Part shown: positions 4,693 through 30,420 of the stretch, in pieces
Layout of the letters: each line of letters opens with the position of its first letter
Position numbering within the stretch: position 1 is the stretch's first letter
DNA from: Alistipes sp. CHKCI003
Lineage (GTDB): Bacteria; Bacteroidota; Bacteroidia; Bacteroidales; Rikenellaceae
Assembly (NCBI RefSeq): GCF_900021155.1
Contig: NZ_FCNT01000018.1
Location: forward strand, 1 to 64,000
Direction: 5' to 3'
DNA: 64,000 bases
Translations under genes and position numbers: made by a program
The notes under the pieces: model-generated
What the model was told of the DNA's origin: nothing
Databases searched by the model: none
What the model saw: the letters and a program-made list of their open reading frames with translations, nothing else

Positions 4693-5301
4693 ATGACAAC
4701 CGACACGGCAACCGAAGCGCGGTTCGTAACCCGCGACCTGCCATACGCCTACGATGCGCTGGCGCCCCACATTTCCGAGGAGACGATGCGTTACCACCAC
4801 GACAAACACTATACGGGCTATGTGGCGAAGCTCAACGAGCTCGCCCTCGATACGCCCTTTGCGCAGCAGCCGCTCGAAGACATCGTCGTTTCGTCGGACG
4901 GTGCGCTGTTCAATAACGCCGCACAGGCGTGGAACCACGAATTTTTCTTCGACACCCTTTCGCCCGCCCCGCAGAGCGTTCCCACCGGCAAGCTCGCCGA
5001 GGCCGTCGACAAGTACTTCGGATCGTTCGAGAACTTCAAGGCTGAGATGAGTAAAGCCGGTACGGCGCTCTTCGGCTCGGGCTGGGTTTGGCTGGTCGAG
5101 GACAAGGCCGGCCGGCTGGCCGTCATGAGTGAGCAGAATGCCGGCAACCCGCTTCGCTACGGGATGAAACCTCTCATGTGCTTCGACGTGTGGGAACATG
5201 CCTATTACATCGACTACCGCAACCGTCGCGCCGACGCGATCGCCGCCCTGTGGAATGTAATCGACTGGAAGACGGTCGGCGAACGCTACGAAAAGAGATA
5301 A
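4693..5301 (+). CDS. sodB: superoxide dismutase, Fe/Mn family (Fe-type residues)
   Basis: About 202 residues from the ATG at 4693 (an in-frame ATG at 4651 and a TTG at 4642 are less likely starts, because SODs begin near LPYAYDALAPH). The metal ligands are visible: H35 (YHHDKHY), H82 (WNH), D165 and H169 (DVWEHAYY). FNNAAQAWNH carries the Gln typical of Fe-SODs, although Bacteroidales enzymes of this type can also work with Mn. It converts superoxide to peroxide and oxygen. The rubredoxin gene ends 54 nt upstream and an intrinsic terminator follows. Confidence 0.93.
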   Translation: MTTDTATEARFVTRDLPYAYDALAPHISEETMRYHHDKHYTGYVAKLNELALDTPFAQQPLEDIVVSSDGALFNNAAQAWNHEFFFDTLSPAPQSVPTGKLAEAVDKYFGSFENFKAEMSKAGTALFGSGWVWLVEDKAGRLAVMSEQNAGNPLRYGMKPLMCFDVWEHAYYIDYRNRRADAIAALWNVIDWKTVGERYEKR

Positions 5302-17117: not shown

Positions 17118-17148
17118 TTTGGAGTTCGTTAAAAATGAATTACCTTTG
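17118..17148 (+). promoter_or_regulatory. promoter of the left tRNA-Val
   Basis: TTTG (17118-17121), a 19-nt spacer and TACCTTTG (17141-17148), 20 nt before the tRNA. Confidence 0.85.
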
Positions 17149-17168
17149 CAGTCCCGAGCCATTTTTAA

Positions 17169-17243
17169 GGGAGCTTAGCTCAGCTGGTTCAGAGCGTCTG
17201 CCTTACAAGCAGAGGGTCGGGGGTTCGAATCCCTCAGCTCCCA
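17169..17243 (+). tRNA. tRNA-Val (anticodon TAC), left copy
   Basis: A 75-nt cloverleaf: acceptor GGGAGCT / AGCTCCC, anticodon loop CTTACAA, T-arm GGGGGTTCGAATCCCTC. It differs from the copy at 30304 at one base in the D-loop (C at 17184). Its 3' part, with the following terminator, forms the left boundary repeat of the island. Confidence 0.95.
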
Positions 17244-17255
17244 CAACTGAAAATC

Positions 17256-17285
17256 AACGACTTACAGCAATGTAGGTCGTTTTTC
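17256..17285 (+). terminator. tRNA-Val terminator, left copy
   Basis: AACGACTT/AGGTCGTT stem around ACAGCAATGT, followed by five T. It is repeated with a few changes at 30391-30420. Confidence 0.8.
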
Positions 17286-17313
17286 TTTTGTGTACCTCCG
17301 TGGTCGGTTTACA

Positions 17314-17352
17314 CGTTTTTTGCCCGTTTGTGTAAACCAGTGTGTAAACCGA
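17314..17352 (+). repeat. cluster of GTGTAAACC sites beside the integrase (left end)
   Basis: GTGTAAACC occurs twice in tandem (17330-17338 and 17342-17350) and once inverted (about 17316-17324) just upstream of the integrase start. The tandem pair TGTGTAAACCAGTGTGTAAA and its tail recur with one mismatch at 30185-30208. The placement fits arm-type binding sites for the recombinase. Confidence 0.6.
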
Positions 17353-17362
17353 GATTTACACG

Positions 17363-18580
17363 ATGAAAGCTACCGTAGAGGTTGTTTGTTACAAGTCCAA
17401 GCCGCTCAAAGACGGCACATTTCCTTTAATGCTCCGAGTTACGAAAGACCGCAAACGCAAATACGTTTCGCTCGGCCTTTCCCTGCACGAAAAGTTTTGG
17501 GATTTCGAGAAAGGCAAGCCCAAACGGAATTGTCCCAACAAAGAGCAAATCGAACGGCTGATAGCCGCAAAAACGGCGGAATACAACGATTTGATTGTCG
17601 AAATGACCTCCCAGCAACGCGAATACACGGTGGAAACGCTCGTGTCCCATTTTCATAACCAAGTCCGTTGCGCTACGGTGGTTGAATTGTACGATAAACT
17701 GATTGATGACATGAAACGCGGCGGTAAACTCGGCAATGCAGGCGTTTACAAATACTCCCGTACATCGTTGCTGAAATTCACGGGACAGCGGTTGCAAATT
17801 CCGTTCAGCGACATTGACGCCGTGTGGTTGCGTCGTTACGAGAATTGGTTACGGACGAGCGGTTGCGGTGATACGACCATTAGCCAGCTCTTTCGAACGT
17901 TGCGTAGCGTGTTCAACAAGGCGGTAGAATTGCAGTTGGTGAAACGGGACTATTACCCGTTCGATACCTATAAAGTCAGCAAATTCGATACGCGGACGAA
18001 GAAACGGGCCATTACGAAAGAGGATGTGCGCAAGGTTATTGCACTCGACTTATCACAAGGCTATCCCTCCGAACGATTGGCGCGTGATATATTCGTGTTC
18101 AGCTATTTCGGAGCAGGGATTAACTTTGCAGACATCGCCCTGCTGAAATACGGGAATGTACGGGACGGACGGGTGCAATACGTTCGCAAGAAAACGGGCA
18201 AGCCTATCAATTTTCTGCTGACGGAAGAAATGCGGAATATCATTGTCAAATACCAGCAACAAGGACAGACGGATGAAGATTATATTTTTCCGATACTCGA
18301 CCGCCGTGTGCATAGGACGGAACAGCAGAGATATGACCGAACGCATAAGGTGCTGACGAACACGAATCGTTGGTTACGTAAAATCGGGCAGCGGGTTGGC
18401 ATCGAACATCTGACTACCTATGTCGCTCGGCATACGTTTGCTACCGTGCTGAAAAGGTCGGGAGTGAACATTGCAATCATTTCCGAATCGCTCGGTCATT
18501 CCGATTTATCCACGACACAAATCTATTTGGATTCTTTCGAGAACAGCCAAATCGACGCGGCTATGCAAAACTTGCTATGA
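17363..18580 (+). CDS. tyrosine recombinase (integrase)
   Basis: A 405-residue Bacteroidetes-type integrase with an N-terminal arm-DNA-binding domain (1-85), a SAM-like core-binding domain (about 100-195) and a catalytic domain (215-400). Catalytic positions seen: K277 in RKKTG, Y353-A-R356-H357 (Y in place of the usual first His, common in this group), H379 in LGHS and the nucleophile Y388. The first catalytic Arg appears to be replaced by Ala251 (GAGINFADIA), comparable to the missing Arg in the CTnDOT integrase. It lies just downstream of tRNA-Val and presumably drives integration and excision there. Confidence 0.93.
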   Translation: MKATVEVVCYKSKPLKDGTFPLMLRVTKDRKRKYVSLGLSLHEKFWDFEKGKPKRNCPNKEQIERLIAAKTAEYNDLIVEMTSQQREYTVETLVSHFHNQVRCATVVELYDKLIDDMKRGGKLGNAGVYKYSRTSLLKFTGQRLQIPFSDIDAVWLRRYENWLRTSGCGDTTISQLFRTLRSVFNKAVELQLVKRDYYPFDTYKVSKFDTRTKKRAITKEDVRKVIALDLSQGYPSERLARDIFVFSYFGAGINFADIALLKYGNVRDGRVQYVRKKTGKPINFLLTEEMRNIIVKYQQQGQTDEDYIFPILDRRVHRTEQQRYDRTHKVLTNTNRWLRKIGQRVGIEHLTTYVARHTFATVLKRSGVNIAIISESLGHSDLSTTQIYLDSFENSQIDAAMQNLL

Positions 18581-18589
18581 CAAAAACTC

Positions 18590-18641
18590 GGACCGACTTT
18601 TCCGAGGGGTCTTAAAATAACCCCTCGGTCAAAGTTGGTCC
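18590..18641 (+). repeat. 52-nt palindrome, copy 1
   Basis: Outer arms GGACCGACTTT and AAAGTTGGTCC enclose inner arms CCGAGGGGT and ACCCCTCGG around an AT-rich loop. It begins 9 nt after the integrase stop. Confidence 0.85.
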
Positions 18642-18649
18642 TACTCTTT

Positions 18650-18692
18650 AAGGGATTATCCGCTTGCATCGGGTAGTCCCTTTTCTTTTTTC
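18650..18692 (+). terminator. intrinsic terminator after the integrase
   Basis: AAGGGATTA pairs with TAGTCCCTT, followed by a T-rich tract (TTCTTTTTT). It lies directly after palindrome copy 1. Confidence 0.75.
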
Positions 18693-18754
18693 TGCGGTCG
18701 TCGGTTGCGTCAGAATGCGAAATTTTGTAAATTCGTCTTTATAAAGATACTCCT

Positions 18755-19666
18755 ATGCAAGAAGAACAAACCTTTTACCCCGTAACGACCGAATATTTCA
18801 CCGCTTGCCTGCCCTTACTGGAAAAATATTTCGGCATCACGGCAGGCTATTTCAACAAAGAACTTTCGGATGCCAAATGTCTGATACCTCACCGAGAGGG
18901 TAATAACGTAAAGTACGGCATTAAAGAGGATTGCAATCTGGTTTTGCCGTTTCGACACCTCGAATGCCATGATTTGTTGTCGCTTATCAACTCTTACGGG
19001 ACAATTACCCCGATAATAGAGGAAGCCCTATTGCTGGTGGCCTACTGCATCCGTGAACGGCAGATCGACGAAAACGAATACAATGACCTTATTCAGTTTC
19101 ATACTTGGGACATATACCAAAGCGAATGGGCGCACCTGTTGCTTTTTATGGAGCAAATGGAGGCACGGGCATTTCAAGGCAACGAACAGACCGCTATCAC
19201 AATTCGCACCAACAACGGGATCAAGGAAAAGATTTCTATTCCGAACAGCGATAACTGGTTATTCCGTCTGATTAAAAAGGAACTTGCAGGCTATTTTCCC
19301 GAAGTACAGACAGCCGAGAAAGCACGGCAAGATATTCAATGGCGCAAACCGTCTGCGGGACGAAAAAAGGATAATGCCATCTATTCGGCAGTTGCATACG
19401 GCATTTACCGAATGCTCCATGAAGAAAACGCAATACCCAGCCAGCCCGATATGCCGAACGAATTATGCGCATTTATTCACGACTTTGCACGGCAGATGGG
19501 TTGCTATTCCGATAATAAAGGGTGGGATGGGGCCTATAGTCCCGATCGAATCCGTGCCGATCTTGCCGCCTATCTGAAACCCTCGGCCATAACACCACGA
19601 TTCAGACCGATACCATTGCAGAGGCAGGTTATCATGCAAGATTTTGATTTTCCGCTATTGGACTGA
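18755..19666 (+). CDS. hypothetical island protein
   Basis: I do not recognise the family. 303 residues, soluble, no signal peptide, moderately acidic. Segments of note are YFGITAGYFNKELSDAKC near the N-terminus, a helical middle (LLLVAYCIRERQIDENEYNDL), and a Lys/Arg patch (RKPSAGRKKDNAIYSAV) near 225. It has its own intrinsic terminator (19690-19727), so it is a single-gene unit between the integrase and the next operon. Confidence 0.65.
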   Translation: MQEEQTFYPVTTEYFTACLPLLEKYFGITAGYFNKELSDAKCLIPHREGNNVKYGIKEDCNLVLPFRHLECHDLLSLINSYGTITPIIEEALLLVAYCIRERQIDENEYNDLIQFHTWDIYQSEWAHLLLFMEQMEARAFQGNEQTAITIRTNNGIKEKISIPNSDNWLFRLIKKELAGYFPEVQTAEKARQDIQWRKPSAGRKKDNAIYSAVAYGIYRMLHEENAIPSQPDMPNELCAFIHDFARQMGCYSDNKGWDGAYSPDRIRADLAAYLKPSAITPRFRPIPLQRQVIMQDFDFPLLD

Positions 19667-19689
19667 TCGGACTATATAACCATACCATT

Positions 19690-19727
19690 TAAGGGAGCCG
19701 TTTATCGCGGTTCCCTTTCTTTTTTCT
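19690..19727 (+). terminator. intrinsic terminator after the 18755-19666 gene
   Basis: AAGGGAGCCG (19691-19700) pairs with CGGTTCCCTT (19708-19717), followed by a T-rich tract (TCTTTTTT). It is similar in sequence to the terminator at 18650. Confidence 0.8.
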
Positions 19728-20216
19728 GCCAAAAATCTGCCAGTGTCATGACATCTGCCGTTTTGTCATAACCGACAGATTTACAATGCTTTTTCAATAT
19801 ATTTTATAACATTTTCAATAGCAAAGGTAATGAATAGGTCTATTTTTAAGGGCTATTCTCTATTTTTTCAAAGTCTGCAAAGGTTGGATTTATGCAGGTT
19901 CAAAAGCCAGAATCCGCGAATAAAGCGTACGGTTATTCGAGAGATTCGGGGAGTAGCCGACAGCCTGCAAAAGAGGCGGTAAAATGAAAAAATACGACCG
20001 ATGAAGTACAAACTGTAAACAGTTGAAAACCAGAGATAAATAATAGGCTCAAATAGAGCCTGTAATATCTACCTCAAAACGGAAAACAAAAGGGGAAAAT
20101 ATCCCGTATTAACCCTGAAAAGCAACAGGTCGGAGCGTACGGCCGACCAAAGTTGCAGGGAGTAGCCGACAGCCCGAAAGAGGCGGCGACAAAACTTAAT
20201 AAAGAAGATAACGATT
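19728..20216 (+). other. long leader region with duplicated motif, no gene
   Basis: About 490 AT-rich bases upstream of the next gene. A unit of about 55 nt is present twice, at 19923-19979 and 20133-20186: AGCGTACGG, a variable part, then GGGAGTAGCCGACAGCC and AAAGAGGCGG. A small hairpin AGGCTC/GAGCCT lies between them near 20047-20063. No open frame looks real; the region may be regulatory or a structured leader. Confidence 0.5.
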
Positions 20217-20828
20217 ATGAAAACGCTTGTAAACACAATCGCTAACTCGAATACTAATTTTAATAATTTTAAAAAAATGGATAATTTAATTATTTCTGCG
20301 ACTGAGCCGAAGAAAGTAAGCTCGCTTGCCACCACCGTTCAGACGGTAACCAAAATTGAAGAGAAACCCGTAATGCGTTTCGTACAGATGAAGTACGAGA
20401 ACAACGCTCAAATGGTAGGCGTTATGCAGAAAGCCATTGGGCTGGGTTTGGACACCATCATCATTACGCCCCGCGTGGATGTCGCAGGTTGCGGTTACGT
20501 TTGGGTCGGCCTACGTAAAGGTCAGACCGAGTTGCAAGGCAAACTTTTGCTGAATGCTCAGATTTGGGCCTATTTGCTGGCGGCTCTGCTGGGCGAGGAA
20601 CTCCCCGAAATTAACAACTGCGACGCTGATAGCGAAATTTGCTGTCAGGGTGAATGGCTGGAAAAGTTGGAGGCGGAAATCCGCCGATACACTACCAAGC
20701 GTCGGGAAGAATACACCCAAGACGCGGAAAGCGGTACGGGTTATCTGACCCATTCGTGGATTTTCCCGAATGGTAAAATCAAGATGCCCGCCGAAGCAAT
20801 AGAAGATGTAACGGCACTTTTCGCCTAA
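20217..20828 (+). CDS. hypothetical island protein
   Basis: Family not recognised. 203 residues from the ATG at 20217; an internal start at 20277 (MDNLIISATEPKKV) is possible. The middle (MQKAIGLGLDTIIITPRVDV) looks like a small alpha/beta unit, and two Cys in SEICCQGEW stand out. The C-terminus includes HSWIFPNGKIKMPAEAI. There is no signal peptide. It ends 55 nt before the ATPase gene and probably shares its transcript. Confidence 0.65.
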   Translation: MKTLVNTIANSNTNFNNFKKMDNLIISATEPKKVSSLATTVQTVTKIEEKPVMRFVQMKYENNAQMVGVMQKAIGLGLDTIIITPRVDVAGCGYVWVGLRKGQTELQGKLLLNAQIWAYLLAALLGEELPEINNCDADSEICCQGEWLEKLEAEIRRYTTKRREEYTQDAESGTGYLTHSWIFPNGKIKMPAEAIEDVTALFA

Positions 20829-20883
20829 CATAAGTCAAACAGGGGAGCGGGTTTCGCCGCTCGCTCCCCATAATTTTTTATCT

Positions 20884-22671
20884 ATGGTCGAAAAAACGAT
20901 CGAAATCAAGCGGGGGCAGGTTCTTTCCGATATACTCCCCAATAAAGAAATCCCGACGAATACGATCCTTAACAAAACGCTGACGGGTTGCGGTGCTACC
21001 TATGGAGAGATCGTACATGCGAAACGGCACTCGATCATCATTGAACCGAATGTGCCCGTTATCCTCGGCAAAAAAGCGGAACACCCATCTTTATTTGCTG
21101 TCTACGAGGGGATAACCAAAGAGGATGTCAAGGCGTTTCTTGCAGGCGAAGAAGATGGATTCAGAAAGATCATCACCACGCCCGAAGGCTTCGATAAAAA
21201 GGTCCTGCCCGCCATGTACGAAACCCATACTCCGATGTACGACGATTATTTCCTCTTGCTCGACGAGTGCGAAAAGACCATACAGGATGTGGGCTACCGC
21301 GGGGATATTTACCTACCCGTCGAGGACTTTTTCAGATTCAAGAATAAGGCAATGGTCTCGGCAACTCCGATCCTGCCCTCCGACCCGCGTTTCGAGGAAC
21401 AGAATTTTGAAATGGTGCGGATTGCTCCCACTTACGACTACCGCCGACCGCTGACACTTTGCGTCACGAACAATACGGTGCGGATACTCCGAAAATTACT
21501 TGTACGGTTGAAAGATGAAACGGTCTGCATCTTTATAAATTCGACCGATACGATTTTGGGACTGATTCAGACGCTCAAATTGGAGGGCCGTTGTAAAGTG
21601 TTTTGCGCCGATAAGAGCGTCCGAAAACTCAAACAGCAGAATTTCACCGATGTAAGCGACCGCTTGTCCGAACTTGCAGGAGTAAATTTTTTCACCAGTC
21701 GGTTCTACTCGGCGGTAGACATTAAACTGGACTACAAGCCGCATGTAATCGTGCTTACGGATGTGTTCCATGCTCCCTATTCGATGATAGACCCGCAGAC
21801 CGAGGTCGTGCAGGCCATCGGGCGATTTCGTAACGGCATAGAGCAGGCGTACCATATAACGAATACCTGCGACAGATTGCAGAGCGTTTCGCGCGACAAG
21901 TTGTTCCATAACCTCGAATGTCAAGAACGGATTTACAACCGAATACGGGAGTTGCCTATTGAGGGCGAAATCGAACACCAAACCCTTACGCAAGCCTTGC
22001 AAGGGATGGACTATAAACGCTTCGTAACGCGCACGGGCAATCGAAACTGGTTCATGTGGGACAACGCATGGACGGATGCCCGACTGGAAGCCCTCTACCG
22101 ATCCTCCGCAACGATTGAGGAGGAGTACAAAGACGCCCCGTTCCAGTTGGCCGTTCATAAGGTAGATTACGACCTGACCGACGAAGACCGTCTGCGGCGG
22201 ACACAGGCCCAAATAAAAGGAACGACGGAATTATGGCGCGAGGTGGTAGAACAAATCGACCGAATCCAACGGCAGAATCCCGACGCAGAACAAACATTTC
22301 TCTGCGGACAATTAGGCGATACGTTCTCAGAAATCATTGAAGCGGCAACGATTCTCGGTAAAGAGCGCATCGGGCAACTGGGCTATGACAGGCGCAGAAT
22401 CAAGGCAGCGTTGGAGAACGTGGAGGAGAACCGATTGATGACCTCCGAAAAGATGCAACGAGCCGTCTATGCGAAATACAATACGGGCGATTTGGTGCTC
22501 TGTTCTGAAATACTCGGTTTTCTGCGGGGACTGATAACCGATAACGGAATACCATTCAAGGGGCGTGTAGACAGGCAGATTGTCAAGCTGTTTTTCGAGA
22601 TTGCCGATGACAAGCCACGAATTAAGGGCAACAAAGCCTATCTGCTCGGTAAAAAGATGTTCGAGTTTTAG
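20884..22671 (+). CDS. SF2 helicase-like protein with degenerate P-loop
   Basis: 595 residues. The order of motifs follows superfamily-2 helicases. A Walker-A-like TLTGCGATYG (about residues 33-42) lacks the Lys of GKT. LLLDECEK (about 123-130) is a DExx motif II. MVSATP (about 155) is motif III, and VVQAIGRFRNG resembles motif VI. The remainder is helical and charged. The missing Walker Lys suggests altered or no ATP hydrolysis, or use as a non-catalytic DNA/RNA-binding scaffold. It is not a relaxase or conjugation ATPase. Palindrome copy 2 starts 11 nt after the stop. Confidence 0.65.
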   Translation: MVEKTIEIKRGQVLSDILPNKEIPTNTILNKTLTGCGATYGEIVHAKRHSIIIEPNVPVILGKKAEHPSLFAVYEGITKEDVKAFLAGEEDGFRKIITTPEGFDKKVLPAMYETHTPMYDDYFLLLDECEKTIQDVGYRGDIYLPVEDFFRFKNKAMVSATPILPSDPRFEEQNFEMVRIAPTYDYRRPLTLCVTNNTVRILRKLLVRLKDETVCIFINSTDTILGLIQTLKLEGRCKVFCADKSVRKLKQQNFTDVSDRLSELAGVNFFTSRFYSAVDIKLDYKPHVIVLTDVFHAPYSMIDPQTEVVQAIGRFRNGIEQAYHITNTCDRLQSVSRDKLFHNLECQERIYNRIRELPIEGEIEHQTLTQALQGMDYKRFVTRTGNRNWFMWDNAWTDARLEALYRSSATIEEEYKDAPFQLAVHKVDYDLTDEDRLRRTQAQIKGTTELWREVVEQIDRIQRQNPDAEQTFLCGQLGDTFSEIIEAATILGKERIGQLGYDRRRIKAALENVEENRLMTSEKMQRAVYAKYNTGDLVLCSEILGFLRGLITDNGIPFKGRVDRQIVKLFFEIADDKPRIKGNKAYLLGKKMFEF

Positions 22672-22682
22672 AGAGGAAAAAC

Positions 22683-22734
22683 GGACCGACTTTCGCAAAG
22701 GGGGTAAATTAAGACCCCCTTGCAAAGTTGGTCC
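22683..22734 (+). repeat. 52-nt palindrome, copy 2
   Basis: GGACCGACTTT ... AAAGTTGGTCC with inner arms GCAAAGGGGGT and ACCCCCTTGC (one bulged A). The inner arms differ from copy 1 on both sides but stay complementary. Confidence 0.85.
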
Positions 22735-23002
22735 TATTCTTTGCTTGTGAAGATACTATCTCTTTTTCACCCCTCCCCCTTTTCAGATGGGAAACCGAAT
22801 TTTTTACTTACTATTTAATAGGATTCCACATAAAACAGACCACCCCTATTTATGCCCGAAACCATCTAACAGCATAAAATTATCGGAATTATATAGAATC
22901 GGAAAACTATTCTTACATGGAGATATGCCGCCCTGTTTAGTTGGTTATGAATGGAGTTATCTTTTTACAAGTAATGGGGAATAACTCTAAACTTTACAGA
23001 CC

Positions 23003-23392
23003 ATGAAAACATTAAATGAAAGGGCGACAGAAATTCTGAAAGCCTTGTTAGCCGTGCGGGCTTACAGAATCGACCACGGAAACGGAGTTTACACACGCTT
23101 ACGTGCCGCAATGATTGGGCGCAATGGAAAGTACAACCTTATTTCGCTGGTAGAATACTACGAAGCTAAAGGTAAACTTGCGCAGAATACAGAAATGAAT
23201 TTTGCATTTGACACAAGTACAAAGCAATTTATCCCGTACTATTACTGCAACAAAACTCTCCGCATTGAATCGCATAGTGCGTACCCGACAGAAAACGGAA
23301 TGGAGAATTGCGCCGAGGAAAGACAGGCTGACCACACAAATTTTGCAAACCGATGGCTAATACGCATGAACTCGCAACAACCGATTATATGA
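23003..23392 (+). CDS. hypothetical island protein
   Basis: 129 residues, soluble, no recognisable domain. It begins MKTLNERATEILKALLAVRA (helical) and has a Tyr-rich centre (FIPYYYCNKTLRIE). Its last 40 nt overlap the start of the next gene, which suggests translational coupling. Confidence 0.55.
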   Translation: MKTLNERATEILKALLAVRAYRIDHGNGVYTRLRAAMIGRNGKYNLISLVEYYEAKGKLAQNTEMNFAFDTSTKQFIPYYYCNKTLRIESHSAYPTENGMENCAEERQADHTNFANRWLIRMNSQQPII

Positions 23393-23670
23393 ATGCGCAA
23401 CGAATAGTACAGAATTGTGTTTTGAAGAATCAAAGCACGGTTATCGAGGAAATGATACGGGCAAACCTTATTTCCGAAGAATATCTTTATCCGTTCGCGG
23501 ATGATGTCATGGAATGGTGGCTGATTGATTCTTGGCTGGCCGAACGGCTGAAAGAGCAAGGCGAGGTTATCATCGAGGAATACGGTTGCTACTGGTGGGG
23601 CAGACAGTCCAGCGGGCAGGCTATCTACATGGATTATGTAATTCAGAGAATTTGCGGGGGAATCGACTGA
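23353..23670 (+). CDS. hypothetical island protein
   Basis: 105 residues, acidic, rich in Trp and Tyr (MEWWLIDSWLAERL, GCYWWGRQ). No domain recognised. Its size and overlap with its neighbour are typical of small accessory genes on Bacteroidetes mobile elements. Confidence 0.6.
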   Translation: MANTHELATTDYMNAQRIVQNCVLKNQSTVIEEMIRANLISEEYLYPFADDVMEWWLIDSWLAERLKEQGEVIIEEYGCYWWGRQSSGQAIYMDYVIQRICGGID

Positions 23671-23819
23671 TTCCCCTTGCAAATCTGAATCCGATTATTT
23701 ACTTTTGCAGAAACAACAAAATAAAGGCAAGAAAACCATGTAGCACGAATAGATTATTACGCTTCAAAACGGGTCCCCCATCCTGTCCCGACTATATCAT
23801 AAATCAAAACATTCAAAAA

Positions 23820-24173
23820 ATGGGGACAGTCAAGAATGTAGAGTTGTCGATGCAATCCGTTCGGCGGCTATTGGAGCGTAATCATCTTGCCTACACGATT
23901 GAAAAGGATTCGATTCTTTTCAACCGACGATTCAACCGCAGGACAGGACAAAAATCCTATTATTACATCGGCTTTACAGAGGGCGAGAAGCAAATCGGTC
24001 GTCAAAGCATCGCGTTCGGATGTGTAGACTACAATGTTTACGACGAAGATTTTGCAATGGGCACATGCTTTCGCCAGACGATGTGTACCGACATGGCGTT
24101 TTTCGCATTCCATTTCCACGACCTCTTTCCCGATTTCTATCCGACCGACGAATACAACGATTGGAGCGAATGA
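23820..24173 (+). CDS. hypothetical island protein
   Basis: 117 residues from the ATG at 23820; the open frame extends further upstream, but that part has no plausible start context. Begins MGTVKNVELSMQSVRRLLER and contains YYYIGFTEGEKQIG and an aromatic, acidic tail (FAFHFHDLFPDFYPTDEY). No domain recognised. A strong terminator follows 9 nt after the stop. Confidence 0.55.
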   Translation: MGTVKNVELSMQSVRRLLERNHLAYTIEKDSILFNRRFNRRTGQKSYYYIGFTEGEKQIGRQSIAFGCVDYNVYDEDFAMGTCFRQTMCTDMAFFAFHFHDLFPDFYPTDEYNDWSE

Positions 24174-24182
24174 CACGAACGA

Positions 24183-24227
24183 CAGACTTTGCAGACGGAC
24201 TGACAACCGACTGCAAGGTCTGTTTTT
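24183..24227 (+). terminator. intrinsic terminator
   Basis: CAGACTTTGCAG (24183-24194) pairs with CTGCAAGGTCTG (24211-24222), one G.T pair, followed by five T. Confidence 0.85.
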
Positions 24228-24272
24228 ATGTAATGACTAAATAAATAAGGCTATGCCAGCACCATAGAATCA

Positions 24273-24475
24273 AAAATAAGGGCAACAACCCCGAAAAGGA
24301 GTTAGGGCTATGCGTTTTTCCGAAAATGTTTCCTAAATTTGTGGAACATACGAACTACGGAAGCGTAAGTTTATTCTCGATGTTGAATCTGGTAAATTTA
24401 ATTGCGATGAGAATAAGCAGACCTAATCTCCCGCCATATCCATACGGATACGAGCGTGGGGTTGTTGCTTATTTT
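24273..24475. repeat. 203-bp element with terminal inverted repeats
   Basis: AAAATAAGGGCAACAACCCC (24273-24292) and GGGGTTGTTGCTTATTTT (24458-24475) are inverted copies apart from a 2-nt gap. The inside has no clear gene. It may be a small MITE-like insertion or a structured transcript. A TAAATTTG box lies inside at 24334-24341. Confidence 0.4.
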
Positions 24476-24577
24476 ATCGCAGGGCTTACCAGAGCCTAAC
24501 ATCATAAATAAGCGTACAACCCTGCGCTTTCTTTTTACTACTAACCGCTGTTTGAGGGTTGGAATGGCTAAAAACTT

Positions 24578-24946
24578 ATGATTATGTTTTTTACAAGCAA
24601 GGAGAAATCCGCAATTGTCAAGATTTCTAACATGATGATTCAAGCCGACGGAAAAGTTGAGCCGAAAGAATTATTGTTCAGTGTGACTGTCATTCAGAAA
24701 CTCAACATCGACAATGCAGATATTGCACGTTCTGAATTACTTTCAAACACAGAAGCATTGGATATTATTTCACGCATGACTGATAGTCAAAAACGATTGA
24801 TCTGCGCATTCTTGGGATGCTTGATGGCAGTCGATGGCAACATTGATAAAACAGAACAAGCACTTTGGAGCTTAATAAGTACATTATGCAATCTTCCGAC
24901 CATGACATTAAGAGAAGCTATTGAAGAAATGAAGGAACTGGCATAA
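24578..24946 (+). CDS. small TerB-like protein
   Basis: 122 residues (the ATG at 24584 is equally possible). The pattern ISNMMIQADGKVEPKE followed by a second FLGCLMAVDGNIDKTE resembles the ADG...E signature of TerB-like all-helical domains, repeated twice. Such domains occur in stress and phage-defence contexts. There is no signal peptide. It is the first gene of the very AT-rich part of the island. Confidence 0.55.
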   Translation: MIMFFTSKEKSAIVKISNMMIQADGKVEPKELLFSVTVIQKLNIDNADIARSELLSNTEALDIISRMTDSQKRLICAFLGCLMAVDGNIDKTEQALWSLISTLCNLPTMTLREAIEEMKELA

Positions 24947-24971
24947 GATAAATAAAAAATACAATATCACG

Positions 24972-25286
24972 ATGAAACGGAGTAATGAATACTACAAAAA
25001 AGTAATGCACACCTGTTTATGCCAAACCGTCATGTTCAAAAAAGTGTCGGAGGATGAATTGCTTTCTATTCTGAAAGGCGTTGTCTCGATATTAGCAGAT
25101 CGGGATAATTTGACACAAACCGATAAAGAAGCATGCTTAATGTACTTTTGGCAGGATTACAATAAAGGATTAAGTGTACCTATGTCAGATGAGTACATCC
25201 GACAAACTCTAATTCCTGCTGTTCTCAATCATCCCAATACGGATATGGCTTGGGCCATGACTGTTGTTTTTACAGCAGGAATGTAA
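24972..25286 (+). CDS. hypothetical island protein
   Basis: 104 residues, soluble and helical (VSEDELLSILKGVVSILADR), with Cys residues at LCQTV. No family recognised. It starts 25 nt after the TerB-like gene, so the two probably form one unit. Confidence 0.5.
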   Translation: MKRSNEYYKKVMHTCLCQTVMFKKVSEDELLSILKGVVSILADRDNLTQTDKEACLMYFWQDYNKGLSVPMSDEYIRQTLIPAVLNHPNTDMAWAMTVVFTAGM

Positions 25287-25333
25287 ATAGGCACAAAGGA
25301 TTAAACAACATTAAAATAACTATACATAGTAAG

Positions 25334-25441
25334 ATGAAAATTCTTGGAATCATTGCTCTTATCATTATTGGCCCTTATGTACTTGCCACAATCGGCGGAA
25401 TAATTTGGGGCATTATAGAAGAATTTACCAAAAAAGAATAA
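25334..25441 (+). CDS. small membrane peptide
   Basis: 35 residues from the ATG at 25334: a Lys, one hydrophobic helix (ILGIIALIIIGPYVLATIGG), then a charged tail ending EEFTKKE. It is a plausible single-pass inner-membrane peptide, 3 nt upstream of the next gene. Function unknown. Confidence 0.5.
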   Translation: MKILGIIALIIIGPYVLATIGGIIWGIIEEFTKKE

Positions 25442-25444
25442 CTG

Positions 25445-25846
25445 ATGAAAAAGATTCTATTTTTACTCGTTTTAATGTTTCTATATTCTTGCGCTTGGGC
25501 ACAAAGTGCCGATTGGAAAACTTGTACCCTCAAAGCAAGTAAGGTCGTCACTTATCAAAACGGGAGCAAAACGAATGAAACAAAATCAAACATATCTATC
25601 ACCATTGATAAGCCCAATTATACAATCCGTGTCGGCAATCAGATGTTCTATGTAGAGGGGAAAGAGGTTTTAAGTTCAAAAGAAATTTTATTTCAATGCC
25701 ACACATCCCAAAGTTCGGAAAAATATGTCATAGCTTATAACGCTAAAACATTCTTTATTCTCGTCGGAAAACAGAAAGATGAAAGTGCGCCAATGTACAA
25801 ATATTATTATTCGACCGACAAAAAGGATATAATTCTAACATATTGA
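25445..25846 (+). CDS. secreted hypothetical protein
   Basis: 133 residues. The N-terminal signal (MKKILFLLVLMFLYSCAWAQ) could be a lipoprotein signal with lipobox LYSC or a Sec signal cleaved after AWAQ. The mature part is beta-rich (ISITIDKPNYTIRVGNQMFYV) with a C-terminal YKYYYSTDKKDIILTY. No family recognised. Palindrome copy 3 begins 15 nt after the stop. Confidence 0.6.
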   Translation: MKKILFLLVLMFLYSCAWAQSADWKTCTLKASKVVTYQNGSKTNETKSNISITIDKPNYTIRVGNQMFYVEGKEVLSSKEILFQCHTSQSSEKYVIAYNAKTFFILVGKQKDESAPMYKYYYSTDKKDIILTY

Positions 25847-25861
25847 TAGCTATCTAATTTA

Positions 25862-25913
25862 GGACCGACTTATTCAAGGGGCCTTTATATAGACCCTTTG
25901 AAAAAGTTGGTCC
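25862..25913 (+). repeat. 52-nt palindrome, copy 3
   Basis: GGACCGACTTA ... AAAGTTGGTCC with inner CAAGGG / CCCTTTG. The next lipoprotein gene starts 13 nt after it. Confidence 0.85.
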
Positions 25914-25926
25914 GCCATTCCATTAT

Positions 25927-26412
25927 ATGAAAAAATACATACTACCCATACTCGCCTTGCTGATTGTAGGATGTAGCATATATCTTTGGGCCAATTCTAT
26001 ATCGAAAAGGGAGCGGTTAGAATTGCTCAATGGAGAATACGAATTAGTCGATTGGCAGATTCGCCCGAAATCTGCTATTCATGCGGATTCTCTTACGGTG
26101 CATGATGTTCCCCAGCGTGGCGAACGCTTAACCCTACAAACGAACGATAACGGAGATTTCCGCTTAACGGCTAAATCATCATTACCAGTCCTGCAACAGT
26201 TAGCTGATTTGGAATGGCAACTACTCTATGTTCGACGCACGTGGTTTGCATGGCGGCATCGTGTCATGGGGCTATATCATGTGGGCGAACATTCGGCAGA
26301 TGTTTACTGGCATCGGGCACTTATCAATCAAAAGGATGTAGGCATTGCTTTACAACTACCTGACCCGACAAATGAAAAGATTAGCTGGTTTCTGATTTTA
26401 CAGAAAAAATAA
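25927..26412 (+). CDS. array lipoprotein 1
   Basis: 161 residues. Signal MKKYILPILALLIVGC with lipobox IVGC (Cys16) shares its DNA leader with the genes at 26490, 27160, 27991, 29004 and 29716. The mature part is a small beta-rich domain (LLNGEYELVDWQIRPKSA, HRVMGLYHVGEHSADVYW) of about 145 residues with no recognised family. It should be anchored in the cell envelope. It is flanked by palindrome copy 3, 13 nt upstream, and copy 4, 4 nt downstream, so it looks like one complete cassette. Confidence 0.75.
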   Translation: MKKYILPILALLIVGCSIYLWANSISKRERLELLNGEYELVDWQIRPKSAIHADSLTVHDVPQRGERLTLQTNDNGDFRLTAKSSLPVLQQLADLEWQLLYVRRTWFAWRHRVMGLYHVGEHSADVYWHRALINQKDVGIALQLPDPTNEKISWFLILQKK

Positions 26413-26416
26413 TTTA

Positions 26417-26468
26417 GGACCGACTTTGTCAGAGGGTCTTAATATAGACCTTTTGAAAAAGTTGGTCC
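26417..26468 (+). repeat. 52-nt palindrome, copy 4
   Basis: GGACCGACTTT ... AAAGTTGGTCC with inner AGAGGGTCT / AGACCTTTT around TAATAT. Confidence 0.85.
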
Positions 26469-26489
26469 GATTTTCCACTCGATAATAAT

Positions 26490-27002
26490 ATGAAAAACTA
26501 CCTAATACCCTTACTTGCTCTACTGATTATGTCGTGTGGAGATTCCCGACCAAAACCGACCTATGATGAAACGCTGAATGATGTCGTTCTGAATTTTAAC
26601 ATTGGAACAGTAGGCGGCGATAGTGTGCTGAAAAACTTTGTAAAGAAAGCGCAGGCAGATTCAGTCGCTCGGCAATATTCCAATCCTACAATGAAAGAGG
26701 AAATGATGTTCACTCTAATCTCTGATTATATAGATGCAGGACAAGTAGACAATGCACAGCACCTATACGATAATATGCTGAAATATGCAGAACAGGAATA
26801 TGGAAAGGTCTGCCAAATGACAGCAATAACCTATAAGGAAAAAGCGCATTTATACGAACGTGTAGGAGATTTGGACAATGCTATTCAGATGATGCAAAAG
26901 TCCGCAGAGGTGTTTAAGAAATTGCCCAAGAATGACATCAATTATTATAAGGATGCAGAGGAGTTTATAAGGAGATGGGAAGAACAGAAGCAGATTAGGT
27001 GA
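26490..27002 (+). CDS. array lipoprotein 2 (TPR-like)
   Basis: 170 residues, signal MKNYLIPLLALLIMSCG (Cys16). The mature part is helical and resembles two or three tetratricopeptide-type repeats (YIDAGQVDNAQHLYDNML, YERVGDLDNAIQMMQKSAEV), a scaffold for protein binding. It starts 21 nt after palindrome copy 4. The next palindrome (copy 5) lies 78 nt downstream, preceded by a remnant leader. Confidence 0.7.
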   Translation: MKNYLIPLLALLIMSCGDSRPKPTYDETLNDVVLNFNIGTVGGDSVLKNFVKKAQADSVARQYSNPTMKEEMMFTLISDYIDAGQVDNAQHLYDNMLKYAEQEYGKVCQMTAITYKEKAHLYERVGDLDNAIQMMQKSAEVFKKLPKNDINYYKDAEEFIRRWEEQKQIR

Positions 27003-27040
27003 CATAATTTTTTACAGGCTATATAATAGCGATTTTTGCA

Positions 27041-27080
27041 AAATGCGTCATATAAGATGAAAACCTATTCACAACAAACC
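27041..27080 (+). pseudogene. remnant of an array-gene start
   Basis: TGCGTCATATAAG followed by ATGAAAACCTA (ATG at 27057) matches the start region of the gene at 27991 (TGCGTCATAGAAG, ATGAAAACCTA). After MKTY the similarity stops and the sequence runs into palindrome copy 5. It looks like a cassette whose body has been lost. Confidence 0.5.
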
Positions 27081-27136
27081 GTGACAAGGTTTATAACAGG
27101 GTCTATAAATATAGACTTTTCAGAAAAGTTTGTCAC
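27081..27136 (+). repeat. variant palindrome, copy 5 (56 nt)
   Basis: Outer arms GTGACAA and TTTGTCAC replace GGACCGAC/GTTGGTCC but remain complementary to each other. The centre is AGGGTCTATAAATATAGACTTT. This is a diverged member of the 52-nt family. Confidence 0.65.
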
Positions 27137-27159
27137 CGAGATAAAGTGGAATTATTAAG

Positions 27160-27957
27160 ATGAAAACCTACTTACTCTCCATATTTGCCTTACTGATTGT
27201 AGGGTGTGGAATTCAACGCCAGCAACAGGCTATTTTTGCGGATAAATTGGATTCAGTCAAACGAGCATATATAACAGCATTGGATTCTATGCGATTGGAA
27301 TATGCCAATACGACCGATTCATTGATTCACATTCGTTACACGAATCTGATAGACGGATATATAGTTAACGTCATGTGGCAACCTGAATATTGTCTTTATG
27401 GCAAAATAGTAGGTAAAGCTATAATTAATTTCAGAGGGCAAAAGCGGCATTTTTCAATGGTACATAGTCATTATTTCTTAAATAATGAAAACAGGGATGT
27501 TCCCGATAGCATAGCAATACAATCTTTTGATAAATCCCATATTTACGAAATCGAATATCCAGCACAGAGTAGGCGTGAAGATGTTCCATTTTTCTTTGAA
27601 GATAACGGAGCCACATTAGTACTCACTATGTGGGGTGCTGGGCGAAAGAATTGTAACACATATCGTTATCATAATGTAATTCATTCCCAAGACGATTTAT
27701 ACCAAGGCGTTTTTCAAGACCCACCCTATACGAAAATAGATGATTTTACCCGTTTTGATGAAGGTAAAATAATATTATTAACTGTTTTTCGTCAAAAAGA
27801 GGAAATATACGAAAAGAACGATTCCACAGAAAGCTATGAATTAACCTATATTAAAGAACGCCCAACCTTTTTTAGTGATTCTGTTTTTACTTATAAAGTC
27901 GAAAAACGATTAGTTAAGAAAGAATATTGTGAAAATAAATATTATTCTTTACAGTAG
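27160..27957 (+). CDS. array lipoprotein 3
   Basis: 265 residues, signal MKTYLLSIFALLIVGCG with Cys16. The first 30 mature residues are helical (KLDSVKRAYITALDSMRLEY); the rest is beta-rich and charged (VGKAIINFRGQKRHFSMVHS, FFFEDNGATLVLTMWGAGRK). No family recognised. It starts 23 nt after palindrome copy 5. No palindrome separates it from the next gene, 33 nt downstream. Confidence 0.7.
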   Translation: MKTYLLSIFALLIVGCGIQRQQQAIFADKLDSVKRAYITALDSMRLEYANTTDSLIHIRYTNLIDGYIVNVMWQPEYCLYGKIVGKAIINFRGQKRHFSMVHSHYFLNNENRDVPDSIAIQSFDKSHIYEIEYPAQSRREDVPFFFEDNGATLVLTMWGAGRKNCNTYRYHNVIHSQDDLYQGVFQDPPYTKIDDFTRFDEGKIILLTVFRQKEEIYEKNDSTESYELTYIKERPTFFSDSVFTYKVEKRLVKKEYCENKYYSLQ

Positions 27958-27990
27958 GTAAGGAAACATTCTACCGTTGCGTCATAGAAG

Positions 27991-29001
27991 ATGAAAACCT
28001 ACACACTCCTCATATTCACCCTGCTGATTGTAGGGTGCGGAAATCAATCGCAATCACGGTGCGATTCTGCGATAGTAGTCCCCATTGATTCATTTAGTAG
28101 GGAGATTGCTAATCGTTCCTTATGGCGGGAACTGTCACATGATGATAATGAATATTTCCCATACATAGATTCGGCCCGTTTGAATTGGTCGCAAGTGGTC
28201 AATCATTATCTCTCGACAAAACATTCTAATTCAAAACAGTTGATTTTGACATGGGGTAAGAATCAACGGTTCGATATAACTCAAACACCTCGATTAAACG
28301 ATATTCACTACATTGATACGCTCTTGTCATTGTGTTACTATTGTACGACTGGGCAATTATCATCGGCATTTGAGCGAGAGTTGGAAAAATATTTATCATT
28401 ACCTATAACATTCGACCAAACACTACCTTTACTTGAACACAATCCAAAGAATAGTGAAATAGATAGTTTGCTCAAAGAAGCAACAGACGGGATCAGAATC
28501 TTCCATACACCAGATAAAAAATACAGAATTTACTGTTGTGAAGATCGTTTTGGCTCCTCTGGCCGATTTTACAGCGTTTACCTGCAATACGTTAAAAATG
28601 GGGAAATCAAGTGGAATCAAATAGCTGATTGGGGTGGCCAAGGGAAATATTCCAATCAACAAATTGATAAAATATACACGTTCTTGCACAATGGACAAAC
28701 ATATTATGTGCTTATAAGTTACTGTTATAATATGGCATATTTTGAGATTGTTACAATCGAAAATGGAAACTTTATAACCCATTCAGAGTTTTACCCTAAA
28801 CAATTCCAAAATAATATAAAGGACGGTTTCATAGAATTTTATGGCGGGTCAGATTCTTATTTTGACCTCGAATTTGATTCACAAACCTTAACTATCAATT
28901 ATACTTTTTATTCTTACATGGGAGAGGTTGAAGAACATGGACAAAAATTCCCTCAATATAAAAAGACAGAGCAAAAAACTGTAAAGTTGGATATTGAATG
29001 A
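27991..29001 (+). CDS. array lipoprotein 4
   Basis: 336 residues, signal MKTYTLLIFTLLIVGCG (Cys16). The mature part contains RIYCCEDRFGSSGRFYSVYL and NQIADWGGQGKYSNQQIDKI, a beta-rich region where a conserved ligand-binding or propeller-like surface is possible but not identifiable. No named family. Its 3' end overlaps an alternative ATG of the next gene (28998), so the two are translationally close. Confidence 0.7.
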   Translation: MKTYTLLIFTLLIVGCGNQSQSRCDSAIVVPIDSFSREIANRSLWRELSHDDNEYFPYIDSARLNWSQVVNHYLSTKHSNSKQLILTWGKNQRFDITQTPRLNDIHYIDTLLSLCYYCTTGQLSSAFERELEKYLSLPITFDQTLPLLEHNPKNSEIDSLLKEATDGIRIFHTPDKKYRIYCCEDRFGSSGRFYSVYLQYVKNGEIKWNQIADWGGQGKYSNQQIDKIYTFLHNGQTYYVLISYCYNMAYFEIVTIENGNFITHSEFYPKQFQNNIKDGFIEFYGGSDSYFDLEFDSQTLTINYTFYSYMGEVEEHGQKFPQYKKTEQKTVKLDIE

Positions 29002-29003
29002 TT

Positions 29004-29711
29004 ATGAAACTCTACTTACTCCCCATATTTGCCTTACTGATTGTTGGGTGCGGAAATCGGGCGCAACCAAGTAGTGATGTAATATTGGATGATATTACAC
29101 GGAATTTCAACGGCGAAACAGAAAATTTAGATTCGATTCGTGTTTTAGTCAGATGTAAAGAAAAAGCAAAACTCTTTTTTGATAAAGAAGAATATACACA
29201 TCGAGCCTTAGATACGAGTTCCATTCATCAATGCTATGAAAATAAATATGCTGCGGCTTTTGTGGATTCTCTTGAAAAAATATTTCAACCATATAAAGAA
29301 CGGTTGATAACATCAGTAGATGGATTTCCCTATATTGATCGCATTTGTCCCGAATTGGCATTAGAATTTGCTCAAGATACGTGTTGGTTGCATACATACT
29401 GGAACTATCCAAAATACATAGGATTCTATAACCGATATATGGATGCGGTTACTGCAAAATATCAATATGTAAGGTTGCGGAGAATGGCAGATAAATACTA
29501 TCGTTATTTATTAATATGTGATGAGAGTGCTGATTGTTTAATGCTTCCTAAATTACACAAACAATGGGTAAAATCTTTAGAATTTGATATGCAATATTGT
29601 AGTCCTGAACAATTCGATCTCTTATATGAAATGATAGAACAGCGTATCGAGTTTTATTATAACGAATGCCAATATCGAATTCCATTAAACAAAAAGCTAA
29701 AAAAGTTGTAA
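29004..29711 (+). CDS. array lipoprotein 5
   Basis: About 235 residues from the ATG at 29004, chosen because it aligns with the shared leader (MKLYLLPIFALLIVGCG); an ATG at 28998 overlaps the previous stop. The mature part is helical and Tyr-rich (YVRLRRMADKYYRYLLICDE) with no recognised family. The following leader-only remnant starts 4 nt after its stop. Confidence 0.7.
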   Translation: MKLYLLPIFALLIVGCGNRAQPSSDVILDDITRNFNGETENLDSIRVLVRCKEKAKLFFDKEEYTHRALDTSSIHQCYENKYAAAFVDSLEKIFQPYKERLITSVDGFPYIDRICPELALEFAQDTCWLHTYWNYPKYIGFYNRYMDAVTAKYQYVRLRRMADKYYRYLLICDESADCLMLPKLHKQWVKSLEFDMQYCSPEQFDLLYEMIEQRIEFYYNECQYRIPLNKKLKKL

Positions 29712-29715
29712 GCTA

Positions 29716-29763
29716 ATGAAACCCTACTTACTCCCCATATTCGCCTTGCTGATTGTTGGGTGA
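29716..29763 (+). pseudogene. leader-only remnant of an array lipoprotein
   Basis: ATG at 29716 encodes MKPYLLPIFALLIVG and then TGA exactly where the lipobox Cys codon (TGC/TGT) stands in the other five genes. The DNA is almost identical to the leader at 29004. Palindrome copy 6 follows 7 nt later. Either the gene body was lost, or a stop was created during rearrangement. Confidence 0.75.
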
Positions 29764-29770
29764 AGAAAAA

Positions 29771-29822
29771 GGACCGACTTTGACAAGGGGGCTTATAATA
29801 GACCCTTTGAAAAAGTTGGTCC
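29771..29822 (+). repeat. 52-nt palindrome, copy 6
   Basis: GGACCGACTTT ... AAAGTTGGTCC with inner CAAGGGGGC / GACCCTTTG. Confidence 0.85.
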
Positions 29823-30021
29823 GATTTTATCAAACGATGACAGAAACAGAAATAAAACAAATGTAGAAGAAAATCAATGCTGGGATTCTGCTGCCCGAAA
29901 GCGTCTGATTGAGAAAACCAAGACAGAGAACGGTAGTAACGGAACAGACACACGTATTAGAGGTAAAGAATATTACTCCACAAAAAATGGAGTTATATAT
30001 ACTATATATCTTAAAAGTTAA
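29823..30021 (+). pseudogene. possible body fragment between palindromes 6 and 7
   Basis: An open frame without a start codon runs out of palindrome 6 and ends at TAA 30019-30021. Its translation includes CWDSAARKRLIEKTKTENG and ends KNGVIYTIYLKS, which looks protein-like. It has no leader, so it may be the 3' end of a lost cassette gene. Confidence 0.35.
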
Positions 30022-30065
30022 GGGCAGGCCAAAAAAAATGCGGTTTTCCTTTGACCTCAAAATTA

Positions 30066-30117
30066 GGACCGACTTTGCAGGATGGTCTATTTTAAGACCC
30101 CCTGCACAAGTTGGTCC
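30066..30117 (+). repeat. 52-nt palindrome, copy 7
   Basis: GGACCGACTTT ... CAAGTTGGTCC with inner arms GCAGG..GGTCT and AGACC..CCTGC around TTTTA. It is the last copy, about 185 nt before the right tRNA-Val. Confidence 0.8.
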
Positions 30118-30184
30118 GATTTTATTCAAATATAAGATTGTCAATTAATTCACTATTGTTTAACCAGCATTGGCTTTATGCAAA

Positions 30185-30208
30185 TGTGTAAACCAGCGTG
30201 TAAACCGA
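30185..30208 (+). repeat. GTGTAAACC tandem sites, right end
   Basis: Same 24-nt motif as at 17329-17352 with one mismatch (GTGTAAACC twice, 12 nt apart). It mirrors the set beside the integrase and lies about 110 nt inside the right boundary. Confidence 0.6.
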
Positions 30209-30252
30209 ACGAACTGCCAGCGAAAAAAGATTTCCCAAAATGAATGGAGGAC

Positions 30253-30283
30253 TTGCAGGAATGATTTATTTATCATACATTTG
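30253..30283 (+). promoter_or_regulatory. promoter of the right tRNA-Val
   Basis: TTG (30253-30255), a 20-nt spacer and TACATTTG (30276-30283), 20 nt before the tRNA. It differs in sequence from the promoter of the left copy. Confidence 0.75.
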
Positions 30284-30303
30284 CACTCGCAATTCAGCAA
30301 AAG

Positions 30304-30378
30304 GGGAGCTTAGCTCAGTTGGTTCAGAGCGTCTGCCTTACAAGCAGAGGGTCGGGGGTTCGAATCCCTCAGCTCCCA
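30304..30378 (+). tRNA. tRNA-Val (anticodon TAC), right copy
   Basis: A complete 75-nt tRNA, identical to 17169-17243 except for one D-loop base. Its 3' end and the following terminator form the right boundary of the island. Confidence 0.95.
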
Positions 30379-30390
30379 CGACTGAAAATC

Positions 30391-30420
30391 AACGACTTGC
30401 AGCGATGTAAGTCGTTTTTT
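30391..30420 (+). terminator. tRNA-Val terminator, right copy
   Basis: AACGACTT / AAGTCGTT stem around GCAGCGATGT, then six T. This copy pairs perfectly; the left copy has changes in the arms. Confidence 0.85.

Follow-up and report, generated by a model that had tools for sequence, protein, structure and literature searches.

The tRNA-Val element and its cargo

The window analysed here, 64,000 nucleotides of contig NZ_FCNT01000018.1 from Alistipes sp. CHKCI003, holds five co-oriented genes (25927, 26490, 27160, 27991, and 29004) with a common leader of 48-51 nt, which begins at the ATG, ends with the lipobox Cys codon, and encodes an export tag of 16 residues. These genes are carried as cargo by an integrative element of 13.1 kb (17141-30419) at a tRNA-Val gene, with the following features:

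17141..17284, + strand: left attachment repeat of 144 nt, with an intact tRNA-Val at 17169-17244; 88% identical to 30276-30419
17363..18580, + strand: integrase, a tyrosine recombinase (Arm-DNA-bind_5, SAM-like, Phage_integrase)
18590..18641, + strand: 52-nt hairpin 3' of the integrase (pattern match and fold)
18650-18682: separate intrinsic terminator after the integrase hairpin
18755..22671, + strand: backbone module with a hairpin at each end; the same hairpin-bounded module occurs in sister elements
18755-19666, 20217-20828, and 20884-22671, + strand: backbone genes, the last with helicase-like motifs recognised by eye
22683..22734, + strand: 52-nt hairpin (pattern match)
24282..24564, + strand: conserved candidate structured non-coding RNA, directly 5' of the variable cargo
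25862..25913, + strand: 52-nt hairpin (pattern match and fold)
25927..26412, + strand: array gene 1, 161 aa (leader at 25927-25976), the sole array gene with a hairpin on each side
26417..26468, + strand: 52-nt hairpin (pattern match and fold)
26490..27002, + strand: array gene 2, 170 aa, leader and TPR-like body (PF13424, 9e-8)
27057..27072, + strand: leader remnant of 16 nt, directly 5' of the diverged hairpin
27083..27136, + strand: diverged seventh hairpin with arms GTGACAAG / GTTTGTCAC (DNA fold z -3.2)
27160..27957, + strand: array gene 3, 265 aa; its body family recurs in genomes G257 and G039, and distantly in G063
27991..29001, + strand: array gene 4, 336 aa; relative in a G247 element
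29004..29711, + strand: array gene 5, 235 aa, with a relative in the G063 element
29716..29765, + strand: leader remnant of 50 nt, in which the leader is followed by a stop codon and a hairpin and the body is absent
29771..29822, + strand: 52-nt hairpin (pattern match)
30066..30117, + strand: terminal 52-nt hairpin, where homology with the G202 element begins
30276..30419, + strand: right attachment repeat with the second tRNA-Val (30304-30379)

The five genes and the one leader remnant of the initial annotation are all in place, and a second remnant, the 16 nt at 27057, was seen besides. The island with a tyrosine recombinase, on which the array had been placed, proved to be a tRNA-targeted integrative element, with an integrase (Pfam matches at E values of 1.9e-25, 4.6e-21, and 1.3e-17), bounding direct repeats of 144 nt that are 88% identical and each contain an intact tRNA-Val, and a related insertion at the same site in genome G202. 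The integrase of the G202 element is 96.5% identical to the window enzyme, and the right ends of the two elements agree from the terminal hairpin outward to the attachment site (89% over 321 nt), with mostly different interiors. The helicase-like backbone gene has 63-65% amino acid identity to its copies in loci L054 and L058. The chromosome has a GC content of about 0.61, compared with 0.43-0.50 for the backbone genes and 0.335-0.436 for the array genes, four of the five lying below 0.41.

Copies of the candidate non-coding RNA were found in loci L048, L049, L053, L054, L057, L061, and L064. It comprises 38 pairs, with two-sided changes in eight of them, and a long-range helix switches from CGTAGGAAA/TTTCCTACG to TCTGGTAA/TTACCAGA.

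A common leader before unrelated bodies

Pairwise identity among the leader DNAs of the five array genes is 67-90% over 51 nt; the shared block of about 50 nt described in the initial annotation is thus real, but "almost identical" overstated its conservation. In 10-nt bins, mean pairwise identity rises from 0.34 to 0.84 at the ATG, stays at 0.70-0.84 from there to the Cys codon, and falls from 0.71 to 0.36 just past it, with background values both upstream of the ATG (0.20-0.34) and 3' of the Cys codon (0.21-0.36). Twenty other predicted lipoprotein genes from the fetched loci served as the comparison set and gave a mean identity of 0.41, with a 95th percentile of 0.55. The five bodies are mutually unrelated at the sequence level (z -1.6 to 2.5 in shuffled alignments), in agreement with the earlier observation. 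Weak similarity persists for about 30 residues beyond the leader in the N-termini of 26490 and 29004, and also extends some distance beyond it in 27160 and 27991.

A profile of the leader was searched in 180 Alistipes genomes, one per species, and strong matches were confined to elements of this kind, with six in the window element (G000), two in G257, and further matches in G002, G063, and G050. Two genes in a G247 element and, in G097, a remnant of 26 nt gave weaker matches that held up on reading. The G097 remnant runs into the terminator that in G002 sits 3' of the leader gene, indicating that the body was deleted in G097. The remnants at 27057, at 29716, and in G097 all end before hairpins.

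Hairpins as module borders

Six palindromes in the window fit the pattern GGACCGACTT-N32-AAGTTGGTCC, compared with none in 100 shuffles. They had been described as bounding several of the array genes; the copies are real, but two of the six (3' of the integrase and at 22683) lie outside the interval first given for the array (25862-30117), only 25927 is individually bounded, and no hairpin separates the successive genes 27160, 27991, and 29004. A covariance model found hairpin relatives in 42 of the 180 Alistipes genomes at E <= 1, and the best E was below 0.001 in 19 of these, often with several hairpins per contig; outside Alistipes, only two genomes in a 295-genome sample of the order gave matches, and these were marginal. 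The contig of the G257 element has no hairpin within the fetched part. The arms are of two types, GGACC...GGTCC and GGACA...TGTCC, with conserved ends GGACMGAC / GTTKGTCC and a G.T (G.U) pair fixed at one position in 29 of 31 hairpins, and the covariation score of 0.226 was reached in none of 500 shuffles. No Rfam family matches the hairpin or the non-coding block.

The hairpins usually stand 5-30 nt past a stop codon and have the orientation of the gene in 26 of 32 cases. Five different genes precede one and the same downstream module, and three different modules follow the helicase-like gene, joined at hairpins in both cases. The hairpins are covarying elements 3' of genes and, as this flank-family comparison confirms with neighbours swapped on either side, module borders. 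The comparison is preferred to a count of alignment endpoints at hairpins (52 against 4.6 +/- 2.4 expected), which is biased because hairpins resemble one another. The borders may reflect site-specific recombination, homologous recombination at the hairpins, or selection keeping 3' ends intact. Reading the hairpin as a simple terminator is insufficient, since the integrase hairpin precedes a separate intrinsic terminator and since the arm sequence and the wobble are conserved; an additional terminator role may exist. The element is one of a family of modular Alistipes elements marked by these conserved 52-nt hairpins.

The only palindrome in a viral contig (L014) looks like chance, and L116, considered as a phage copy, was rejected as an integrase fragment beside other integrases. 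Hairpins stand in tandem right behind the integrase in L047 (8933/9030), L054 (8049/8148), L057 (12947/13042), and L058 (14328/14423). A hairpin of the same family also adjoins a gene for a 1226-aa protein whose N-terminus appears Cas9-like in G216 (L050 1404-5084).

Separate histories of leaders and bodies

The gene at 29004 shares 94% of its leader DNA with a gene in G002 whose body is unrelated to it (z 0.5) and to the other window bodies, and 25927 has a 74% identical relative in G050 with only 76% identical leader DNA. In G231 and G039, the members of the 25927 family lack a lipobox Cys and possess only a membrane anchor, the 27160 family elsewhere carries MKRILF- and MKTCIS-type leaders, and seven further genomes hold distant 27991 relatives that begin with other leaders. 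When 25927 and 27160 were compared with their G257 relatives, five leader sites grouped genes of the same genome, and no site grouped them by family or crosswise; codon or GC bias may contribute to this genome-specific signal, because four of the five sites are changes towards G/C in G257. Sequence comparison thus shows that leaders and bodies have had separate histories, and that leaders of different genes within one element resemble each other.

Exchange could be followed most closely between the elements of G231 (L048) and G039 (L049), whose backbones are 93.8% identical across 6.9 kb, the common block stopping just past the conserved non-coding block, where the cargo starts. Their family-1 genes have a 65-bp leader block that is 97% identical, with unrelated upstream DNA and only 23% identical bodies. 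The leader of the z-body gene in G231 is 82% identical to that of a different G039 gene and 69% to that of its own G039 relative; together with the preceding 11 nt, it is 85% identical to the different gene over 67 nt. This pattern would be the product expected from recombination between two leaders with deletion of the intervening DNA, in either direction of change. Within G039 (L049 2350-2400 / 5000-5040), half a hairpin is fused mid-gene to another gene at a shared 9-nt ACAAACTTT, indicating that short-homology joining occurs in these arrays. The aligned loci show leader/body junctions that differ between closely related elements, so that the leader is best regarded as a recombining, homogenised module, in support of shuffling. 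The proposal that different bodies were joined to a common export leader by recombination is therefore upheld by the G231/G039 comparison, the 29004/G002 pair, and the grouping of leader sites by genome.

Overall, the best explanation is probably that the array is cargo of a modular element in which leaders recombine and are homogenised. Short leader repeats would recombine, by a homologous or annealing-type process, and reassort the bodies, and the same leader-leader recombination would homogenise the leaders by gene conversion, so that a new or diverged body would be turned into a ready-made exported lipoprotein. Short-homology recombination alone suffices for leader exchange. Genes for a Sak4-like single-strand annealing ATPase and for a conserved partner occur in several sister elements (L046-L065); the link to leader exchange is only suggestive, because the window element has no recognisable Sak4-like copy.

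Predicted function of the array proteins

For the array proteins, Pfam gave TPR-like repeats only, NCBIfam and PADLOC gave no family of note, and PDB sequences gave no useful match. None of the bodies matched a family of immunity, toxin, or defence proteins in Pfam, NCBIfam, or PADLOC, libraries that unknown immunity families may escape, and the suggested role in immunity against neighbours' toxins consequently found no backing. No relatives of the array proteins occur in viral contigs or phage records.

An acidic motif for surface export, placed past the Cys, is known from Bacteroides lipoproteins. The array proteins have no such motif, so that anchoring towards the periplasm is more likely. 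Related elements carry other lipoproteins too, as well as known or candidate anti-phage cargo, namely a PDC-M12 pair, an AbiLi-like ATPase, a UG26 reverse transcriptase, SoFic, and PDC-M30B/M41B (loci L057 7168-9089, L061 534-1895, L059 7556-8869, L046 6871-7911, and L054 4256-5002). Since anti-phage genes often occupy the same cargo slot in sister elements, the products might tentatively be regarded as periplasm-facing accessory or defence proteins of the envelope; defence of any kind as the function of the array is less likely than not.

Comparison with known systems and alternative explanations

The initial annotation pointed to a system related to rAID, and a divergent version of it, in which the integrase captured orphan immunity lipoproteins against neighbours' toxins, is unlikely. 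rAID clusters consist of a tyrosine recombinase upstream of co-oriented genes of about 100-300 codons with less than 41% GC and a conserved intergenic motif (PMC12247911). The rAID recombinase of B. fragilis is BF9343_RS08045; the window integrase is an Arm/SAM/Phage_integrase protein. The window resembles rAID clusters in having an integrase upstream and five genes in one orientation, 161-336 aa long and in four cases below 41% GC, and therefore contains at least two co-directional short genes of such GC downstream of a recombinase, but with backbone genes between integrase and array. Hairpins, possible counterparts of the intergenic motif, stand at 25862, 26417, 27083 (diverged), and 29771, some of them between array genes; most array genes, including 27160, 27991, and 29004, have none between them. 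Furthermore, no immunity domain or homologue (T6SS or other) was found in Pfam, NCBIfam, PADLOC, or PDB sequences, and rAID is described as broad across Bacteroidales genera, whereas the present hairpins are restricted to Alistipes in the 295-genome sample. The shared lipoprotein leader and the multi-gene backbone also set the array apart, and the proposed kinship with rAID was not sustained.

It is rather improbable that the element is a dedicated platform for domain capture, in which leader (5') and hairpin (3') form a slot where the element's own recombination system inserts and loses bodies, giving changing envelope-anchored inhibitors of phage or toxins. Equally improbable are integron-like cassettes, with hairpins acting as attC-like sites recombined by the element integrase. 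Like integron arrays, the locus has imperfect palindromes with fixed ends and a variable, covarying middle that lie 3' of genes and are mostly gene-oriented; one or two copies adjoin the integrase, and modules change at hairpins, whose neighbours vary on both sides. However, the integrase is a phage/ICE-type enzyme that reaches 48.9 bits against a cut-off of 265 for TIGR02249 and 33.4 against 435 for PRK15417, leaving no integron integrase here; the hairpin ends do not fit the attC consensus GTTRRRY / RYYYAAC by eye, T runs behind many hairpins are terminator-like, and the hairpin at times moves with the downstream instead of the upstream module. The tRNA attachment site and the several multi-gene modules are further differences from integron arrays.

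Simple duplication in tandem of a single lipoprotein gene, after which the bodies diverged past recognition and the signal peptide stayed conserved, would account for neighbouring co-oriented genes with one leader and for the weak resemblance that two pairs retain beyond it. It is nevertheless very improbable, as the bodies differ in kind: one is TPR-like, and low-confidence structure models make the 27160 family beta-rich (pLDDT 44.5) and the 29004 family all-helical (pLDDT 43.7). Body relatives with other leaders (the membrane anchor without Cys, MKRILF-, and those of the seven other genomes) and the G002 gene, whose leader precedes a body related to none of the five, also speak against it, and the array does not present one diverged family with conserved synteny. 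In the lpl clusters of Staphylococcus aureus, the genes belong to one paralogous family with related mature parts. The Alistipes array differs in its unrelated mature parts. Like these clusters, which are located on vSa-alpha, it consists of lipoprotein genes arranged in tandem within a genomic island (PMC4470592).

The closest known arrangement of a conserved leader with variable bodies is that of the mycoplasma vsp/vpma genes, which likewise combine a conserved signal peptide with mature parts that differ and have a tyrosine recombinase nearby, and in Mycoplasma agalactiae vpma and M. bovis vsp the leader is common even between species with unrelated bodies (PMC2268961). In vpma, a conserved 72-nt 5' UTR holds the proposed Xer1 site, and DNA inversion switches expression (PMC2268961). 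Phase or antigenic variation of this type, with the leader as switch point for one expressed surface lipoprotein, is highly improbable in Alistipes, where identity is at background upstream of the ATG and only the ATG-to-Cys stretch is shared, no single promoter was identified, inversion between copies is impossible because all point the same way, and the genes are carried on a tRNA-Val element.

Implications for modular elements in Alistipes

Leader recombination and homogenisation on a modular element, as favoured here, would make this locus a natural example, open to dissection, of a signal-peptide sequence of 50 bp acting as the joint at which unrelated proteins are shuffled into the envelope, and its sister elements are nearly identical yet found in different states. 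If a dedicated capture system were at work instead, the array would supply a changing set of inhibitors directed at phage or toxins and anchored in the envelope. The hairpin signature, the likely structured RNA, and the cargo slot also mark out a family of modular elements in Alistipes. Because sister elements have known or predicted anti-phage systems in this slot, the neighbouring unknown genes are good candidates for function tests.
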